A DNA stretch of 38,772 bases from positions 1-38,772 of the IMG/VR virus record IMGVR_UViG_3300010370_000084; one strand, written 5' to 3'. Of the stretch, positions 2,461 through 36,347 are shown piece after piece. The position numbers were made by a program, and so were the translations under genes. Under the pieces are notes generated by a model. That model was not told where the DNA came from. It was given only the letters and a program-made list of their open reading frames with translations, and did no database searches. This DNA comes from a virus. The number at the start of each line of letters is the position of its first letter. Position 1 is the first letter of the stretch.

Positions 2461-3411
2461 TTAGCAATCCCCGTATGATGCACCCCACCCTACCTCACAT
2501 GCAAGGGGGAGCGTTTTAGCCCACGCCGGTCGCCACGACATACATTCCTCAACATATTTCACGGCTTCTTCAACCTGCGCCTCGGGTGCGACACAGGCAA
2601 CCGCATCATGGACAGTCAACACCACCTTGTACCGCTTGGCGATGCGCAGCATCTGCTCAGCCACGATGCACCGCGCGATCCCCTGGCAAAAATTCTCCAC
2701 ACTTTTGCCTCCGTATATGTCGATCACCTGCCCACGTGAGTCGTACACCCACCGCAAGGTGCCGTCATCCCGGCGCTCCTGCCGAAGCCCTGGGTACTGA
2801 ATGTGTGTACCGTTCGGAAGCGTAAGCCCCACGCCCGGCATAGCCTTCACGATATTCTGCCGGTCCACAACCATCGGCATATGCGCCGCCAGCATCGAGA
2901 GCGCAACGTCTGCAGTTTTCCATAGCTCAGGTATGCAGTAGTACGTCCGTCGATAGGTATCTACTATGCGCTTGGCTTCCGCATCGTCCACCACAACGCC
3001 CGCACCCGTCTTCAGGAAGAGCTGTAGCTTCTTGTGCCCGACTCCATAACCACAACCTAACACAGTTGACTTTCCAATGAACCGTTGTTCTTTTGTTATC
3101 TGGTCAGGCGCAACCCCGTAGATATGCGAAGCCATGATGCGATACACGTCTTGCTTTTGTTCAAACGCATCAACGAGGTCTTGCTGCCCCGCTAACCACG
3201 CCAGCGTCCGCGCTTCGATCTGTGAGGAGTCTGAATCAATCACCACGTAACCGGGCGGCGCTTTGATAGCTTTCTTGATCTTGCCTGCGTTAGCTGTGCG
3301 TGATGGAAGGTTTTGAAGGTTAACCGAATCAGAGTTGTGTACCAATCTACCGTTAGCTACAAACCTATGCCTCGGCCCGCAGTTTTTGATGTCGTATACC
3401 GCAACCAACAT
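2461..3411 (-). CDS. polA: C-intein plus C-terminal half of family A DNA polymerase (fractured gene)
   Basis: 316 residues. Residues 1-26 are a C-intein: the block F-like VYDIKNCGPRHRF, then NGRLVHN ending in the His-Asn pair used for Asn cyclisation, followed by Ser as the +1 nucleophile. Residues 27-316 are the polymerase palm and fingers: NLQNLPSR, motif A DSDSSQIEA at 59-67, motif B R110, K114 and YG at 122-123, motif C VHDAV with the catalytic Asp near 269. Start chosen at 3411 because AAAGGAGAAAAC stands directly before this ATG; the frame is open to 3489, but that extension overlaps the endonuclease and adds no intein motif. The N-terminal half is at 4029-5309 in another frame. Active polymerase should require protein trans-splicing. 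A 26-residue C-intein is on the short side for known split inteins. Confidence 0.92.
   Translation of the reverse strand: MLVAVYDIKNCGPRHRFVANGRLVHNSDSVNLQNLPSRTANAGKIKKAIKAPPGYVVIDSDSSQIEARTLAWLAGQQDLVDAFEQKQDVYRIMASHIYGVAPDQITKEQRFIGKSTVLGCGYGVGHKKLQLFLKTGAGVVVDDAEAKRIVDTYRRTYYCIPELWKTADVALSMLAAHMPMVVDRQNIVKAMPGVGLTLPNGTHIQYPGLRQERRDDGTLRWVYDSRGQVIDIYGGKSVENFCQGIARCIVAEQMLRIAKRYKVVLTVHDAVACVAPEAQVEEAVKYVEECMSWRPAWAKTLPLACEVGWGASYGDC
3334..3411 (-). other. C-intein segment of split polymerase intein
   Basis: 26 codons from ATG 3411 to the terminal Asn before Ser. It has the block F His (HRF) and block G (LVHN|S). The first 47 bases overlap the 3' end of the endonuclease gene in another frame, so the same DNA codes for both the endonuclease tail and the intein strand. 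Confidence 0.88.
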
Positions 3412-4165
3412 GTTTTCTCCTTTGTAAAATTTCGTCGTCTGTAAAGCCTTTATGTATCCACTGACGAACGGTTTCATAAGTGATGTCACTTCGCTGCGCT
3501 AGGATAGCTCGTACCCGCTCCCCCATAGTGGTTCGTTTGTATTGGCGTTTGTTTCTTGCTTGTTCCGAACGCGTGGCCCATCTCAGATTCCCAGGTTCGT
3601 AGTGCCGGTTGTTATCGATCCGATCTAACGAGTGTGCCGGCGTAGGTCTAGGGCCCAGGTTGTAGAGTATCCATTCGACTGCGCTTCTAATACTCGGGAA
3701 TCTAAACTCAATGCCTCTACCGCCATAATTTTCATAGACGACGTTTTTGGGGTTTGTACAGCGACCTTTAGCCCCCACAGCGGTAGCCCTAGTGCGCTGT
3801 ATATCTTCAACAGAAAACCGTTGTCGTAGCGGGTCATTCAGGAGGGTCTCGGCCAAAACCTCTAATGCTACTGCAGAGGCAACGGTAGCTTGGCGCCTAC
3901 GTTCTTCAGGGTCCATTCGTGCCATTTTTGCTCGGCTAGAGCAGGACCTGCAAAACTTAGAGTTACCGCTTAGGAGGTCACTAACCCTTAGCGCTCGCTC
4001 AACCCCGCAAGCACATCTGCACAAAACCCTATCTTTTGTAGTTACGAATAAGTCTCCTAGCGGTGTCCACGTCGTCTTGGGTAGGGCTTCGAGGAGTTTG
4101 GATTTTGTGGCCTCCCTGCATCGCATCTCGTAAGCTAATCTCGCCGGCGTCTGTGAATACGACAT
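3365..4165 (-). CDS. HNH homing endonuclease lying between the two polymerase halves
   Basis: 266-residue predicted homing endonuclease. An N-terminal segment has a zinc-binding pattern (CRCACG near 50, then CRSCSSR near 73). The middle carries the phage HNH family signature (GRCTNPKN, YGGRGI, HSLDRIDNN, GNLRWATRSEQ) and the C-terminus looks like a DNA-binding helix-turn-helix (ITYETVRQWI). Its 5' end overlaps the N-intein gene by 137 bases and its 3' end overlaps the C-intein gene by 47 bases, each in a different frame. Start uncertain: ATG 4165 or ATG 4126; neither has a strong ribosome site. It should cut intein-free polymerase genes and spread the split-intein block (inference from the family and position). 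It is not the EDxHD type first described for fractured genes. Confidence 0.82.
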   Translation of the reverse strand: MSYSQTPARLAYEMRCREATKSKLLEALPKTTWTPLGDLFVTTKDRVLCRCACGVERALRVSDLLSGNSKFCRSCSSRAKMARMDPEERRRQATVASAVALEVLAETLLNDPLRQRFSVEDIQRTRATAVGAKGRCTNPKNVVYENYGGRGIEFRFPSIRSAVEWILYNLGPRPTPAHSLDRIDNNRHYEPGNLRWATRSEQARNKRQYKRTTMGERVRAILAQRSDITYETVRQWIHKGFTDDEILQRRKHVGCGIRHQKLRAEA

Positions 4166-5309
4166 GATCGGGTGTCCCTGTTACGTTGTCCCATGTGATG
4201 ACTTCTTGGTAGCCGCTGAACTGAACACCTTCGTGCTCTACAAACTTTTCCCCATCCCACACAAGGTCGTCTGCGAGTACGTCAACGATACGTTTTGTCA
4301 TCACCCCATGCTGTGGATCATACACAATCACCTCAGTATCGGCAACTAAGCAGCCAGACCAACGACCCGAGTGTGCCCCGTAGTATCTAAGCGGCACAGG
4401 AAACTTGCCACGATAGGACATATCTATGAACCGCTGAGTGCGTGTCTCCTCGATCGTGCTCTTCACACCCAACCGTGCGGCAACGATAGCCTGCACTTCA
4501 ACGTCTTCGTGCTCAAGCAAAGCTTTGAACGCTTCATCAGTCTTCGCAAACGCGAGTGTCTGCTTACCCGTGGTCGGACTTGTCTTCATCGGTGGCTCAA
4601 CGCCACGCTCTTTGAGCATCTCAGCCAACTGCGGATTACTCATCAGACGAGATTTATCGTCGGCACTCAGCTTGCTGAGTAACGCTTCCTTCTTAGCCAG
4701 CACGTCCGCCAAGTGGTCCTGCAACAACTCACGATCCAGCTCAAGCACGGGGTCTATGAACATCCGCAGAGTGAGATCAATCAGTTGAAGCTCTTTGATG
4801 GGGAACCCACGCCGTAGGTACTGCGTAAACAACTCATACGTAAGCTCCACATCATTGACGCAGTAAGCACCATACCGTGCCAGTGACTTGGCATCGAAGT
4901 CTTTGTAGTTCTTACCGATTGCTGCAACAACTTCGTCACCCTTAGCACCGACTCCCATACGCTGGGCTTGAGTCTTGAGGCTATGGCTCTTCTCATGCGG
5001 AAACAAAGCGCGAGACATACCCATGATATCCAGCCACGCCTTGGGCTCCACGCCGTAGTGCCACTTGAGGATCGCACCATCGAACATGGTGTTCTGGGCT
5101 ACCACCATTGCGTTGCCCCAGTCGATAGCCGCCAGTGCTGCCTTTACTTCAGGCTTGGGGTACCACTTGGTAGGGCCGTGATCGATCTTGATGGCGACAC
5201 CAATCGTCTCGAACAGGGGGCTGCGGATGTACTCCTCGGTTGATATCTTTGAGAGCGAATACTCTCGGTCGTAATAAGTCTCCAGATCAAGCACAACGAC
5301 ATCAGACAT
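4029..5309 (-). CDS. polA: N-terminal half of family A DNA polymerase plus N-intein (fractured gene)
   Basis: 426 residues. Residues 1-160 are a DEDDy 3'-5' proofreading exonuclease: D8 and E10 (LDLET), NTMFD at 73-77, Y149 and D153 (YCVND). Residues 170-319 lead into the polymerase domain and stop inside the conserved HSGRWSG segment. Cys320 opens an N-intein of 107 residues: block A CLVADTEV, block B GTPDHVVFT with the Thr and His needed for the first acyl shift. The protein ends shortly after, without endonuclease or C-intein. The first bases overlap the VRR-NUC gene by 8. Together with 2461-3411 it gives about 609 extein residues. It belongs to the replication block of the phage. Confidence 0.93.
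   Translation of the reverse strand: MSDVVVLDLETYYDREYSLSKISTEEYIRSPLFETIGVAIKIDHGPTKWYPKPEVKAALAAIDWGNAMVVAQNTMFDGAILKWHYGVEPKAWLDIMGMSRALFPHEKSHSLKTQAQRMGVGAKGDEVVAAIGKNYKDFDAKSLARYGAYCVNDVELTYELFTQYLRRGFPIKELQLIDLTLRMFIDPVLELDRELLQDHLADVLAKKEALLSKLSADDKSRLMSNPQLAEMLKERGVEPPMKTSPTTGKQTLAFAKTDEAFKALLEHEDVEVQAIVAARLGVKSTIEETRTQRFIDMSYRGKFPVPLRYYGAHSGRWSGCLVADTEVIVYDPQHGVMTKRIVDVLADDLVWDGEKFVEHEGVQFSGYQEVITWDNVTGTPDHVVFTDAGEISLRDAMQGGHKIQTPRSPTQDDVDTARRLIRNYKR
4032..4352 (-). other. N-intein segment of split polymerase intein
   Basis: 107 codons starting at Cys320 of the N-half. Block A has the catalytic Cys1, and block B has the T-x-x-H pattern. The last ~20 residues (after KIQTPR) match no intein block and may be an association tail. 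The segment overlaps the start of the HNH gene. Confidence 0.88.
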
Positions 5310-5601
5310 CCGTTACTCCTATGACGCGAACAGCCTCGATGTTGGTCTCATCAACGACAAGCGCCACACCACCGGCTTCGCGTATTTTCATAATCTCAGC
5401 AGCTTGTAGTGCCGTTGGCACATTGCCTTTGGCTTTGCACTCGATAGCGAAGAACGCGCCGTTGACGCAGCCTACGATGTCAGGAATGCCTTGCCTGCCA
5501 TAGCCGTTAGCGGGGGGCATGAAGTAGTAGACCCCCATCTCATCAAGAATTTTGCGAACGGCTTTCTTAACTTTTACTTCAGGAGTTGCTGCCATAGCCA
5601 C
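5302..5601 (-). CDS. VRR-NUC domain nuclease
   Basis: 99-residue stand-alone VRR-NUC protein, a PD-(D/E)XK nuclease domain known from FAN1 and many phages and linked to branched or flap DNA. Visible: E8 in the first helix, GIPD at 38-41, E54-C-K56 as the E-x-K catalytic pair, and Q66 in the following helix. The length is typical of the phage form, which is thought to act as a dimer. It overlaps the polymerase N-half by 8 bases and the upstream DUF3310-like gene by 23 bases, so all are probably made from one mRNA. A role in resolving replication or recombination intermediates is inferred. Confidence 0.86.
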   Translation of the reverse strand: MAMAATPEVKVKKAVRKILDEMGVYYFMPPANGYGRQGIPDIVGCVNGAFFAIECKAKGNVPTALQAAEIMKIREAGGVALVVDETNIEAVRVIGVTDV

Positions 5602-5905
5602 GCCTCCGCAGTTCGTTGTACTTTTGTTTGTAGTGGTGATACTTACCAGCGTCGGGGCTGTCTTTCTTACCTTGCCGCATCGCGTACTTAATAAGATTTC
5701 CTTTGACGAAGCCCAAGAACTCTTCGCGGGTCAGCAGGACCTCCATCACGTCCCAGGGTTGTGGGTCCATCTCCTTGTAGTGGCTGCCGCCGACTTGGCG
5801 GTCGTTTGCAGAAGCGATAGGGGTAGTGTCATCCAGGGGGCTTTTGGCTTGTGTCATATCGTATTCCTCTAGTTTGCGTTTGATGATGTCGTTAAGGGTT
5901 ACCAC
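5579..5905 (-). CDS. DUF3310 protein, T7 gp1.7 nucleotide-kinase-like
   Basis: 108 residues. The block NDRQVGGSHYKEM, QPWDVME, FLGFVKGNLIKYAMR and GKKDS is the DUF3310 signature, the domain carried by T7 gene 1.7, a nucleoside monophosphate kinase acting on dTMP and dGMP. The start is GTG at 5905, supported by CCGGAG seven bases upstream; an ATG-free N-terminus makes the GTG likely. The stop of an overlapping short frame ends at the same point. In context with a DfrB-like reductase 500 bases upstream it could help thymidylate supply for phage DNA (inference). Many DUF3310 proteins are untested, so kinase activity is not assured. Confidence 0.8.
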   Translation of the reverse strand: MVTLNDIIKRKLEEYDMTQAKSPLDDTTPIASANDRQVGGSHYKEMDPQPWDVMEVLLTREEFLGFVKGNLIKYAMRQGKKDSPDAGKYHHYKQKYNELRRRGYGSNS

Positions 5906-5935: not shown

Positions 5936-6208
5936 TCAAAGGTGGGTTTGCCGTCGTGTAGGGGTGGGTTTGTGAGTGGTCGTAAAGACTCTAGGTTTGT
6001 TGGGAACGGCCACGTAGGCGGTGTGTCGGTAGGTCCAGAGCTTTTTGCCTTTGACGATTCGATAGCCTGCTGTTCCTTCATGCTCCATCTCCTTGAGGAT
6101 CTTTCGTATCGTAGTGGTTGAAACAAGAAACCGAATTGCTAGCTGGTCTACATGAAGAGGTGTCTTAATACTCTTGATGTATCGTTCAAGCTTATCCCTT
6201 GTTCGCAT
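5936..6208 (-). CDS. Small winged-helix/HTH DNA-binding protein
   Basis: 90 residues from ATG 6208, which has GGAGG seven bases upstream. Residues 1-58 look like a winged helix: a first helix ([11 protein letters not shown]), a helix-turn-helix ([20 protein letters not shown]) and a wing ([11 protein letters not shown]). The last 30 residues are low-complexity and basic. Reading the +1 frame after KGKKLW instead gives a more protein-like tail ending at 5899 ([18 protein letters not shown]), so a sequencing error, a frameshift or a recent mutation is possible. It overlaps the DfrB-like gene by 17 bases. Role probably regulatory; the target is unknown. Confidence 0.65.
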
Positions 6209-6392
6209 AGTTAACCTCCGGCACCCAGTGTTCCAGTGCTTTTGCCGGGTATATCTGTACAGACCCTTTCTCCGTCCAGCTCTCAACTGCATACCCTTCT
6301 GGGGTTAGTGTCGTGGAGTAGGTTCCTACGATAACCCCGTGCCACTGAGATCCAGATACTTTGCGAACTGTGTCGCCTCGTTTGAATTTCAT
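6192..6392 (-). CDS. Type II (R67/DfrB-like) dihydrofolate reductase
   Basis: 66-residue SH3-like protein. Against R67 DHFR as I recall its sequence, the 53 core positions align without gaps with about 34 identities: [11 protein letters not shown]17, G19, IVG, Y25, [10 protein letters not shown] and GSVQIYP. The R67 active-site residues K32, S65, V66, Q67, I68, Y69 map to K11, S44, V45, Q46, I47, Y48, all kept, as is W38 (W17). R67 is a homotetramer with one central pore that reduces dihydrofolate with NADPH and is insensitive to trimethoprim. The disordered N-terminus of R67 is absent, and a C-terminal tail ([12 protein letters not shown]) is extra. AAGGAGA precedes the ATG. Enzyme activity is inferred from the conserved residues. 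Confidence 0.88.
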
Positions 6393-7138
6393 TTGTTTTT
6401 CTCCTTCAGCTTTGCTTCGATTTGATCGAACAACTTTCGTGTATATCCTTTAATCGGGGTGTCTCCCCACGGCCCAATGATTTCCTTGATCTCCTCATCC
6501 GTCAGCCCGACCCATTGGCGCTTCGCTTGTTTCAACTCTGCTCTCAGCCGTTGCTGCTCATCCAGCATCTCAGCAAACTTTTCGTCGTATGCCTTTACCG
6601 TGTCCCAGTCAGGTTTAAAGTCGTTGATTGATTGTGGTGCTGTGTAGAGCGGTCGCACGTTGAAGCCCTTCTCGCGCTCAATATCGGCATAGTCCTGAGT
6701 CGTCCAGTCTCGAATTACTTCGTCCCGGTCGTCTGCCAGAAAGTCGTACATCCACGCAACCGGCCTCGCCTTCTGCCGCGCACAGACCAGACAACCGTCA
6801 CCGGGGATGATCGCCTTCCAGCCGCATTCCTCGCACAGTTCGAGTGAGGTTTGGTCGTACTGCTCTGCCTTGGCGCTTTTATATCCGTCATACCACGCGC
6901 TTTTCGCTTGCTCTCTTGCGGGGGCTAACGGATTGCATAAAGTGTTATCCCATGACACATATGAACCAGATGCGCTCTGCTTCTCAGCCTGATCGATGGC
7001 AGCGCGGAGGGCGGTAATAGTTTGGTTGATGAAATGCTCTGGAAAACTCATTACCTGCTCATGGGCGTACTCATGAAAGCAGGTAGAAACTGACTTCTCC
7101 AACGCCTCCAGCGCCTGCTTCATCGCTTCAATGCTCAT
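6389..7138 (-). CDS. Phage protein with zinc-ribbon core, unknown function
   Basis: 249 residues, mosaic in look. The N-terminus ([18 protein letters not shown]) and the segments PVAWMYDF and RPLYTAPQ are of a type that recurs in small accessory genes of proteobacterial phages and prophages. A central zinc ribbon is visible ([10 protein letters not shown] then CLVC near 105-120). The C-terminal third is a coiled coil ([18 protein letters not shown]) followed by WVGLTDEEI. It overlaps both neighbours by four bases (ATGA type), so it is translationally coupled. No catalytic motif seen and no function assigned. Confidence 0.75.
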
Positions 7139-12114: not shown

Positions 12115-13266
12115 TCACACCTCCACACGAATAGTTGTACCGAACGGCGCTTTGCGTTTGCCTGCGATGGCCCACAGCGTGGGCCAGTCTGATTTACCCC
12201 AACTGTTGCCGATCTCACCATCAGTCAGCACGATGACCGCCTCGGGCTTGATGCGGTTGTCTCGAAGATAATCAAACACCACGTCGGCACGTGTGCCGCC
12301 CCCACCCTTGGGCTTGAGTGTTGCCACTGCGAAGTGACCATCATCAAACACCTGATCCCCCGCCACTCGTGTATCCCAATACAACACACGCACACGACTG
12401 GGCCTGACCTGCTCGATGACCCCCTGAAGCTCCGACACAAACGCAGTCATCATGGCGCTACCGAAGCACGACCCCGAGGTATCAAGCGCCACCACAAGCT
12501 CGCCCATCGTGACCCCCTGCAGTGTGGGCATATACACGTCATCACTTAGGTAGCGTCGGTTCGGTTTGCGCCACGAGGACTCGTCCTTGCCTGCACAAAG
12601 CTCAGACACAAAGTCGCGCAACACTTCACGCCAATTAACCTTGGCTTCGAGCAACGCACCGAACACACCGTCCTGACTACCTGCACCATCCTTGCTACGC
12701 TGGCGCTTGACGATCTCACCCTGACGCACAAGCCGCTGGATCTCCTCGGTTAGCTTCTCACGCTCCTCAGCGCTGCGCCCATGGGCCTCATCCCACATGT
12801 GCTCATCGAACCCACCACCTCCGCTACCACTACCCCCGTTCTTTTTCAGGTCGTCATAGATCTGCCTGACCGACCAGCCCCGATACTTCTCATCGAGCAT
12901 CCCACCGATCTGCGGCATGCGTATGAACCCTGCATCCTTGTCGGCATCGAGCAACGATATGTTTACGAAATAATCCGCAGCCTGATTCGCAAGCTTGGGG
13001 TTTTCATCGAACAACCCGCGCCACATGTCCAGGTGCAGGTACGCCACATGCGTGGCCTCGTGGAGGATCACGAACCTAAGCTCGGGGTCACTGAGCTTCT
13101 CGATAAACGATTCGCCGTAGAACTTGTTGAGCCCATCGGTACAGGCTGTGGGTATATCTTCGCGCACCTCAGTGCGCCCCGACGCAAGTATCGGCCCGAA
13201 CGAACACCACATCTTGTGGTGCATGATGGACACGTGCTGCCTACGGATGCGATCTAACGGACTCAT
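12115..13266 (-). CDS. VWA-like protein with HEATH metallopeptidase-like domain (DUF2201 type)
   Basis: 383 residues. The N-terminal domain has FVILHEATHVAYLH with HEATH at 69-73, a zincin-type HExxH-like motif (H-E-A-T-H), as in the putative metallopeptidase domain of DUF2201 proteins. A glycine-rich linker follows (GGSGSGGGG near 144-152). The C-terminal VWA domain has the MIDAS motif D262-T-S264-G-S266, a GGGGTRADV segment near 315 for the conserved Thr, and LTDGEIG. VWA proteins of this sort work with a MoxR/CobS AAA+ partner, here encoded two genes upstream in the same operon. Target unknown; metal insertion, protein remodelling or a host-directed role are possible. Confidence 0.82.
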   Translation of the reverse strand: MSPLDRIRRQHVSIMHHKMWCSFGPILASGRTEVREDIPTACTDGLNKFYGESFIEKLSDPELRFVILHEATHVAYLHLDMWRGLFDENPKLANQAADYFVNISLLDADKDAGFIRMPQIGGMLDEKYRGWSVRQIYDDLKKNGGSGSGGGGFDEHMWDEAHGRSAEEREKLTEEIQRLVRQGEIVKRQRSKDGAGSQDGVFGALLEAKVNWREVLRDFVSELCAGKDESSWRKPNRRYLSDDVYMPTLQGVTMGELVVALDTSGSCFGSAMMTAFVSELQGVIEQVRPSRVRVLYWDTRVAGDQVFDDGHFAVATLKPKGGGGTRADVVFDYLRDNRIKPEAVIVLTDGEIGNSWGKSDWPTLWAIAGKRKAPFGTTIRVEV

Positions 13267-13439
13267 GGTTTTCTCCTAAGTTTGCCTTGCAATGCCCAGT
13301 CTTGAATGCTTCGTTCAACGCGCCCCATCTCATAGCGTTTCATGGGCGGCACATACGCAAGCCCGATGCGACCTGGGTGCCAATCTTTACGAAGCCGCAC
13401 CACCGTGCGACCGTCTGCTGTGTGCTCAGTAATCAGCAT
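13263..13439 (-). CDS. 58-residue protein between the AAA+ and VWA genes
   Basis: Short gene supported by tight packing: ATG 13439 follows the AAA+ stop by one base and has GGGGAA upstream, and its TGA overlaps the VWA start (ATGA). Basic protein: MLITEHTADGRTVVRLRKDW, then YVPPMKRYEMGRVERSIQDW. Not recognised; could be a small partner of the AAA+/VWA pair. Confidence 0.62.
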   Translation of the reverse strand: MLITEHTADGRTVVRLRKDWHPGRIGLAYVPPMKRYEMGRVERSIQDWALQGKLRRKP

Positions 13440-13440
13440 C

Positions 13441-14523
13441 TCAGTTCCCCTTCAGATACTTGGCTTGGCCTGCACTGAGCTCCGTGTATGCACGGCACAT
13501 GGCCAGCATCGTGAGCTTGGATTTAACGCCAGCGATTGTCGTTATGAACAAGTGACGTGCTTCGAATGACTCCCAGCGCTTGACGTACTCACAATACGCA
13601 GGCAACGACGCAGGCTGCGCCCGGTTCGCAAGTTTGAAAGCCATGAGAAAGTAAGCAGACACACCGTCCGGCAGGGGCGCATCCTTGGGGGAGGACTCGA
13701 TAAGTTTCAGTGGTGGCAGCTTGTCGTCCAGCAACACCGCAGCCTCAAGCATCCTCGCCGCAGGCTCACCGATCGTACCTGCCAGTGCAGGCAAGAGCGC
13801 ACTACCCAGACGGTCACGTTGTTTGATGATGTGTGACGCCCGCTCAAGCGCCCGCCCCGAGCAGTATGTCTTGGTGTTACCCGTCAGTGGGTTGAACACG
13901 TACGGGTTCTTAGGATTAGTGAGCGCGTCGTACCGCTCGAACACCTCGGGGGTATCAAACACAAACTTCATTACTGCAGGGTCGATATCGTTCTCAGCTG
14001 CCCACAGCAGCCACCCAGTGGGCTTCCCCTCAGCGTCAAGGACTTCGGGATTGGCGTAGTCCACCACCGTCATGCGGTTATAGCCATGTGCAGGCAGTGA
14101 GTCGCCCACCCCGTCAGAGTCTAGGTTACCGGTGGCGAATACGTAAGAGCCGTATGGCAAGGACAGGTCGCCCAATCTGCGGTCGTTGGCTAGTGGCCAC
14201 AGCATATTCAGCACGGGCTTAAGCGCTTTACTTAGCTCATCCAGCATGATGAGGACGGGTTGGTCAGACCCACGGCGCAGCCCGAACCGATTGTTCGGAG
14301 CGTAGGAAGTTGTCATGGTCTCGCGGTCCACCACCGGCATGGCGATATCGCCAAGGTCTAACTGAGTGCAGTCCACGTAGCAGGGGGTGTGGTCAGGCAG
14401 TTGCTTAGCGAGTTCCTTGAGGATCGCAGACTTACCCATACCCGGCTGCCCCCGCAGCATCACGGTGACTTGAGTACCCACGGTACGGATGAGGGTTACG
14501 GCTTGTTCGAAATTGACTTGCAT
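13441..14523 (-). CDS. MoxR/CobS-like AAA+ ATPase
   Basis: 360 residues. Walker A GQPGMGKS at 25-32, Walker B LIMLDE ending at D95-E96, and sensor 1 FATGN near 130. The ATPase lid and a helical C-terminus follow. The group is the CobS/MoxR AAA+ family, which forms hexamers and remodels protein targets with a VWA partner; in cobalamin synthesis CobS and CobT insert cobalt. Phages carry such pairs without cobalamin genes, and their task there is not known. It starts the AAA+/58-aa/VWA/84-aa/DUF3150-like run. Palindrome copy 2 lies 20 bases upstream of the ATG, so it may be under operator control. Confidence 0.85.
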   Translation of the reverse strand: MQVNFEQAVTLIRTVGTQVTVMLRGQPGMGKSAILKELAKQLPDHTPCYVDCTQLDLGDIAMPVVDRETMTTSYAPNNRFGLRRGSDQPVLIMLDELSKALKPVLNMLWPLANDRRLGDLSLPYGSYVFATGNLDSDGVGDSLPAHGYNRMTVVDYANPEVLDAEGKPTGWLLWAAENDIDPAVMKFVFDTPEVFERYDALTNPKNPYVFNPLTGNTKTYCSGRALERASHIIKQRDRLGSALLPALAGTIGEPAARMLEAAVLLDDKLPPLKLIESSPKDAPLPDGVSAYFLMAFKLANRAQPASLPAYCEYVKRWESFEARHLFITTIAGVKSKLTMLAMCRAYTELSAGQAKYLKGN

Positions 14524-36160: not shown

Positions 36161-36167
36161 GGTCATC

Positions 36168-36347
36168 ATGGCAACTAAGTTCAAGCGTGGTGATCTAGTC
36201 AAGGTCAATACTGTCGTGCCTTCTGGGGAGGTTGAAGCTTTTCGGATGGACGAGGACGGGGTTGTGTGGTGCCGGATGACGTGGGTTGATGTTGAGGGCA
36301 ACCAACAAACTCGTTGGTTCAAAGAAGACGATCTGGTCAATGAATAA
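36168..36347 (+). CDS. Small SH3-like protein (DUF2158/YodC-like)
   Basis: 59 residues from ATG 36168, with GAGG upstream. TKFKRGDLVKVNTVVPSGEV, VVWCRMTWVDVEGNQQTR and WFKEDDLV form a small beta-barrel like the YodC/DUF2158 family. Not related to the DfrB-like protein beyond the barrel: no VQIY strand. It lies between tail genes; function unknown. Confidence 0.65.
   Translation: MATKFKRGDLVKVNTVVPSGEVEAFRMDEDGVVWCRMTWVDVEGNQQTRWFKEDDLVNE

Follow-up and report, generated by a model that had tools for sequence, protein, structure and literature searches.

The window, by which we mean the whole stretch of DNA analysed (an IMG/VR virus record of 38,772 bases, possibly a fragment), contains a small gene whose 66-residue product is near certain to belong to the R67/DfrB family, as judged from its sequence, its key residues and its predicted fold, and this dfrB is a genuine gene of a freshwater phage, kept under purifying selection. 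In sister phages, relatives of the gene recurrently adjoin genes of 7-deazaguanine synthesis, and the explanation that we tentatively put forward, as somewhat short of probable, is that the protein would be a real R67-type NADPH-dependent pore reductase with a dihydropterin as its substrate, perhaps in the synthesis of 7-deazaguanine.

The original prediction had placed an R67/DfrB-type gene at this position; the coordinates were right, and the strand is the minus strand (Table 1). The ORF starts with an ATG at 6392, preceded by a good ribosome-binding site, and it matches the Pfam family PF06442 (DHFR_2) with an E-value of 5.7e-21 and 74.6 bits (gathering score, 25 bits), R67 DHFR in the PDB with an E-value of 1e-16, and the PHROG family phrog_31682, the function of which is not annotated there. 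The match to R67/DfrB is far beyond chance. Alignment of the core with DfrB1/R67 gave 35 identical residues out of 53, where about 34 had been given, and the equivalents of K32, W38, S65, V66, Q67, I68 and Y69 (the last four form the pore lining of R67) are all present, as had been predicted, together with that of S59. Relative to R67, the protein carries the changes W45T, H62E and K33V, and the 21-residue N-terminal tail is absent, the protein beginning two residues ahead of the core. K32 of R67 takes part in the electrostatic binding of DHF and NADPH, W38 lies at the dimer-dimer interface, and W45 tolerates substitution with little effect and is not conserved in distant homologues (PMC9835603).

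Table 1. Features of the window around dfrB, with the evidence for each.
Feature	Position	Strand	Evidence
DfrB/R67-type ORF, 66 aa	6192..6392	minus	ORF list, Pfam, PDB match, AF2 fold
VQIY tetrad V45-Y48 (V66-Y69 of R67)	6249..6260	minus	position from ORF, residues by alignment
K11 (K32 of R67)	6360..6362	minus	no variation in 117 distinct cores
W17 (W38 of R67)	6342..6344	minus	no variation in 117 distinct cores
Shine-Dalgarno motif AAGGAG	6401..6406	minus	sequence; 8 nt ahead of the dfrB ATG
Upstream gene, mosaic early-type phage protein (ALRAAI / PVAW...PLY / WVGLTDEEI modules)	6389..7138	minus	ORF list, profile searches
Downstream winged-helix (DeoR-type HTH) protein	5936..6208	minus	PF08220, E 1.9e-4, barely above cut-off
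DUF3310 protein (gp1.7 / nucleotide-kinase-associated domain)	5579..5905	minus	PF11753, E 6.6e-11
PolA pieces	2461-5309	minus	profile searches

The AF2 model of the monomer has a pLDDT of 90, and Foldseek aligned it to R67 structures with target-normalised TM values of 0.92-0.97 and 0.6 Å. The protein almost certainly folds as an R67-like, SH3-like protomer, a statement that concerns a single-chain prediction and not a solved structure, and the R67/DfrB-type identity proposed at the outset is thus supported by the DHFR_2 match, the key residues and the modelled protomer alike. Among 76 distinct viral cores, K32, W38, V66, Q67 and Y69 do not vary, I68 and S65 have one variant each (I is kept in 75), and K33, W45 and H62 drift. 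The invariant core residues are specified by varying synonymous codons (with the exception of W, which has one codon), the median dN/dS over 374 viral DfrB pairs is 0.11, and between the window gene and that of locus L002 dN is 0 at a dS of 0.42. This pattern of conservation would fit a pore that is in use; it should be noted that a conserved non-catalytic oligomer would yield part of the pattern too.

The start codon of dfrB overlaps the stop codon of the upstream gene in the sequence ATGA, and the 3' end of dfrB is overlapped by the downstream winged-helix ORF, the start of which (6208) was picked by eye. These neighbours are mosaic early proteins: in relatives the modules of the upstream protein are swapped, and in L004-L006, which have a 98% identical match, a PVAW...PLY module takes the place of the C-terminal tail. 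The window also encodes a terminase, PolA, an SNF2-helicase and a PD-(D/E)XK nuclease, and the earlier description of the locus as a replication block near a gp1.7-like gene was fair, in view of the DUF3310 gene and the PolA pieces. The polA gene itself is apparently broken into an N-terminal part (4029-5309) and a C-terminal part (2461-3489), which end and begin, respectively, with intein-like stretches and are separated by an HNH-like ORF (3365-4165) in a different frame; judged by eye, this looks like a fractured gene that carries a split intein together with a free-standing endonuclease. Elsewhere in the window, DUF2201 (metallopeptidase and VWA) adjoins an AAA ATPase at 12115-14523 on the minus strand, a MoxR/VWA-like pair in a phage, and at 36165-36347 on the plus strand another small SH3-like protein is encoded (MATKFKRGDLVKV...), which matches phrog_3261 weakly and DHFR_2 not at all.

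Of the suggestion that phages are a reservoir, the part that is supported is that they hold a large and diverse pool of the family; for the resistance genes they would be a possible source only. Alignment searches returned 264 DfrB-encoding stretches in IMG/VR and 41 DfrB loci in 84,980 bacterial and archaeal species, a ratio that is indicative only because the collections differ in size and sampling, and 26 records of public phages match DfrB, several of which are already labelled dihydrofolate reductase. An unrooted tree was built from 117 distinct cores of about 50 residues; it has many open forks, and DfrB12-21 were left out. This phylogeny, a check that had been proposed and that was made here with dfrB1-4, 6 and 10, places the window in a set of 13 rows (99/99) that are all from phages, separate from the resistance clade, a shallow group of 20 rows (99/95) that unites the cores of dfrB1, 2, 3/10, 4 and 6 with 14 genome rows, mostly from Burkholderiales or unclassified Proteobacteria. 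The remaining rows are mostly viral, with alphaproteobacterial and other genome loci among them, and the viral cores nearest to DfrB1 are 76% identical to it. With its few columns, many unresolved forks and no root, this tree does not show which way dfrB passed between phages and bacteria. None of the marks of a clinical resistance gene (a place in the resistance clade, a score above the trim_DfrB cut-off, a length of 78 aa with the tail, an integron cassette) was found for the window gene, which scores 83 bits against the NCBI resistance model trim_DfrB, below the cut-off of 137.

Non-canonical DfrB proteins were also seen in bacterial records. One of 67 aa, encoded at L083:4977-5180 (NZ_CP143525.1) and also in L082, L224, L225 and L226 (WP_257792703.1 where annotated), shares 80% identity with the window protein across residues 2-56. 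It matches six Pseudomonas plasmid records, and in the five that were inspected it is part of a class 1 integron, where it runs opposite to the other cassettes. The L083 copy is bounded on both sides by GTTRRRY and accompanied by an attC-like stretch. The cores nearest to it are viral (80%), and its placement in the tree is unsettled. In a Burkholderiales MAG (L177:5500-6300), a non-canonical DfrB is flanked by repeated GCCTAAC...GTTAGGC sites, as in a bacterial integron array, and in a Polynucleobacter MAG (L178 and L213, JALRHB010000011.1) two different DfrB domains share one 21-kb contig with phage-like ORFs.

When the neighbours of viral DfrB loci were clustered, the recurrent families were QueD (PF01242 and phrog_2389), FolE (PF01227 and TIGR00063), QueE (QueE-like, phrog_2076, 1e-52) and a TGT-like (DpdA-like) protein. 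The sub-clade of the window comprises 58 loci (L001-L057 and L080), and in the fetched flanks of 46 of them at least one of these four genes is present. The start of DfrB overlaps or abuts the end of a partner gene in 29 loci (QueD in 14, FolE in 9, the DpdA-like gene in 6) and a QueE ORF starts inside the 3' end of DfrB in eight, counts to be read with the proviso that related loci are not independent and that compact phage genomes commonly have overlaps of four bases. Half of the 12 loci without partner genes are near-copies of the window's phage. No QueD, QueC, QueF or DpdA-like gene was found in the window, and no FolE or QueE ORF is evident in its ORF list; among the rows closest to it in the 13-row set are DpdA-adjacent forms (L009, L014, L017, L020, L023, L027 and L036). 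Near the bacterial, plasmid and cultured-phage DfrB loci, no deazaguanine genes were found.

QueD was detected in 22 of 53 DfrB records versus 103 of 50,697 public phages, a contrast that is rough because the methods differ (profile versus tblastn). QueC gave one marginal match in the 53 records and QueF none over the cut-off, and the sister phages, if they follow the scheme of PMC6884629, would stop before preQ0 or borrow the QueC of the host. QueF was considered as the reason for an NADPH enzyme and rejected, as its matches are all sub-threshold and their positions beside DfrB point to FolE, with which it shares the T-fold. In the reverse view, a strict count found DfrB in two of the 80 closest QueD loci and in one of the 80 closest DpdA-like loci, and DfrB is thus optional in such regions. 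In an adjacency null, DfrB ranked second among the families present in at least eight loci; because another small gene from this same neighbourhood adjoins the deazaguanine genes more regularly, adjacency alone is suggestive only. The deazaguanine neighbourhood of DfrB appears to be new to the literature searched, in which few subscription journals or preprints were covered and no relevant report of a link between dfrB and queuosine was found.

The label "DpdA-like" is a supported guess and not an assignment. The protein had no sequence match in Pfam, PHROG, NCBIfam, PADLOC or the PDB; its AF2 model is poor (pLDDT 56), with archaeosine TGT still the top match (E 2.6e-3), and its alignment keeps the TGT hallmarks DSGGFQ and FDCASPF. 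The protein at L020:3256-4998 and its relatives form a large unannotated phage family with these hallmarks, present in at least 507 IMG/VR stretches, which is possibly a new type of DpdA.

With NADPH as its cofactor, R67 reduces a 7,8-dihydropterin ring, and dihydro- and tetrahydropterins are also what FolE, QueD and QueE work on; it is this shared pterin chemistry that speaks for a functional tie between DfrB and its partners. The established route to preQ0 is not known to require an extra pterin reductase, which counts against such a tie. By analogy with relatives that have been assayed, the window protein is likely to be a catalytic reductase. It represents a minimal R67/DfrB-type protomer, four copies of which could assemble the R67 pore, and the pore would perform NADPH-dependent reduction of a 7,8-dihydropterin, as R67 does with dihydrofolate. 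More weakly, the neighbourhood suggests that the natural substrate in the clade may be linked with the pterin-handling part of 7-deazaguanine synthesis (FolE, QueD, QueE), where DfrB might, for example, keep or regenerate the tetrahydropterin used by QueE. In the window phage, the substrate would be a dihydropterin or dihydrofolate made by the host, since its genome lacks the deazaguanine genes, and DfrB there would therefore act, if at all, independently of such a cluster. A pterin or 7-deazaguanine role is plausible, the chances being evenly balanced at best for the sub-clade and lower for the window phage.

The original prediction had proposed a natural role in thymidylate supply, and this is not supported. 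A plain dihydrofolate reductase that raises the supply of tetrahydrofolate and thymidylate during infection seems unlikely, if still worth serious consideration: R67 itself reduces dihydrofolate, DUF3310 is close to dfrB in the window, and phage genes for FolA-type DHFR are frequently found beside thyA (PMC7725336), but neither thyA nor thyX nor folA was found in the window (which may be a fragment), and none of the three recurs as a close neighbour of viral DfrB loci in the neighbour clustering. Among the 53 DfrB-bearing phage records, thyA is present in seven (one of them weak) and thyX in two, which speaks for this role to some extent, and folA is present in none; as many records are fragmentary and there is no matched base rate, these counts speak against it without being decisive.

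It is quite doubtful that the protein is a non-catalytic, SH3-like oligomerisation module that is shuffled among mosaic early phage proteins, with its DHFR activity latent. In many viral loci the DfrB domain is fused at its N- or C-terminus to unrelated sequence, which speaks for such a module, and it has been argued that catalysis arose from a non-catalytic fold (PMC9835603); however, the residues of substrate binding and pore (K32, V66, Q67, Y69) are invariant in the viral cores while K33, W45 and H62 drift, and the window's clade consists mostly of stand-alone proteins. DfrB is known for resistance and dfrB genes occur in class 1 integrons, yet it is highly improbable that the phage has lately acquired a mobile resistance gene under trimethoprim use: the score against the resistance model is below the cut-off, neither integrons nor resistance genes were noticed in the window, and the position within the phage-only set, apart from the resistance clade, led us to reject this candidate. 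A reductase acting on a dihydropterin is the reading that we prefer.

Where dfrB came from and what it does in nature have been named as open questions (PMC11662351, PMC9774602), and the latter would become testable if the DfrB pore takes part in the pterin steps of DNA modification in phages. The deazaguanine context of most of the closest relatives hints at a role of the DfrB family before antibiotics. A farther-reaching proposal, which we regard as rather unlikely, is that DfrB was first a phage pterin/7-deazaguanine enzyme, serving DNA-base modification against restriction, and that the trimethoprim-resistance genes of integrons descend from the phage pool via Burkholderiales chromosomes. 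Viral sequences hold much of the DfrB diversity found here, and the 2024 study that named Burkholderiales as the original hosts of dfrB, leaving its natural role open, does not mention phages (PMC11662351). Tools that apply strict resistance models would overlook such forms, including the non-canonical DfrB in class 1 integrons of Pseudomonas plasmids.

Phage carriage of DfrB is already published, in 2020, 2023 and 2025 (PMC7265639, PMC9835603, PMC12466917), and the window gene itself thus offers limited novelty. In comparison with R67/DfrB1 (PF06442; PDB 1VIE, 2RK1), it shares 35 of 53 core residues, K32, W38, the SVQIY motif and the predicted protomer (0.6 Å), whereas it differs in the missing tail, in W45T, H62E and K33V, and in its phage context without an integron, outside the resistance clade. 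The phage homologues DfrB-H3 (Pseudomonas phage) and DfrB-H4 (Vibrio phage), the latter of which gave trimethoprim resistance in E. coli, likewise keep VQIY, K32 and W38 and not W45, but they form part of longer proteins encoded close to DNA methylase genes, and the window protein stands alone; a further homologue, DfrB-H5, is active and tetrameric (PMC9835603). As far as the available parts of the reports go, DfrB2-like genes on four contigs of freshwater viromes (PMC7265639) and eight dfrB candidates of lytic phages (PMC12466917) are similar in being phage-encoded, with 50-72% identity to known DfrB, and differ in that function and gene context were not studied there. The Burkholderiales genes (PMC11662351) and the environmental DfrB12-21 (PMC9774602) resemble the window gene in being non-clinical with an open natural role, the former, unlike it, falling within the resistance clade and the latter being absent from the tree. 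The phage clusters for 7-deazaguanine DNA modification comprise FolE, QueD, QueE, QueC and DpdA and, in the available part of that report, DfrB is not named among the pathway members (PMC6884629); the window has no such cluster, and the DfrB phages differ from the published clusters in that QueC is essentially absent and QueF absent over the cut-off. Nevertheless, it is these clusters that the sister phages resemble, with FolE, QueD, QueE and the DpdA-like gene beside DfrB.
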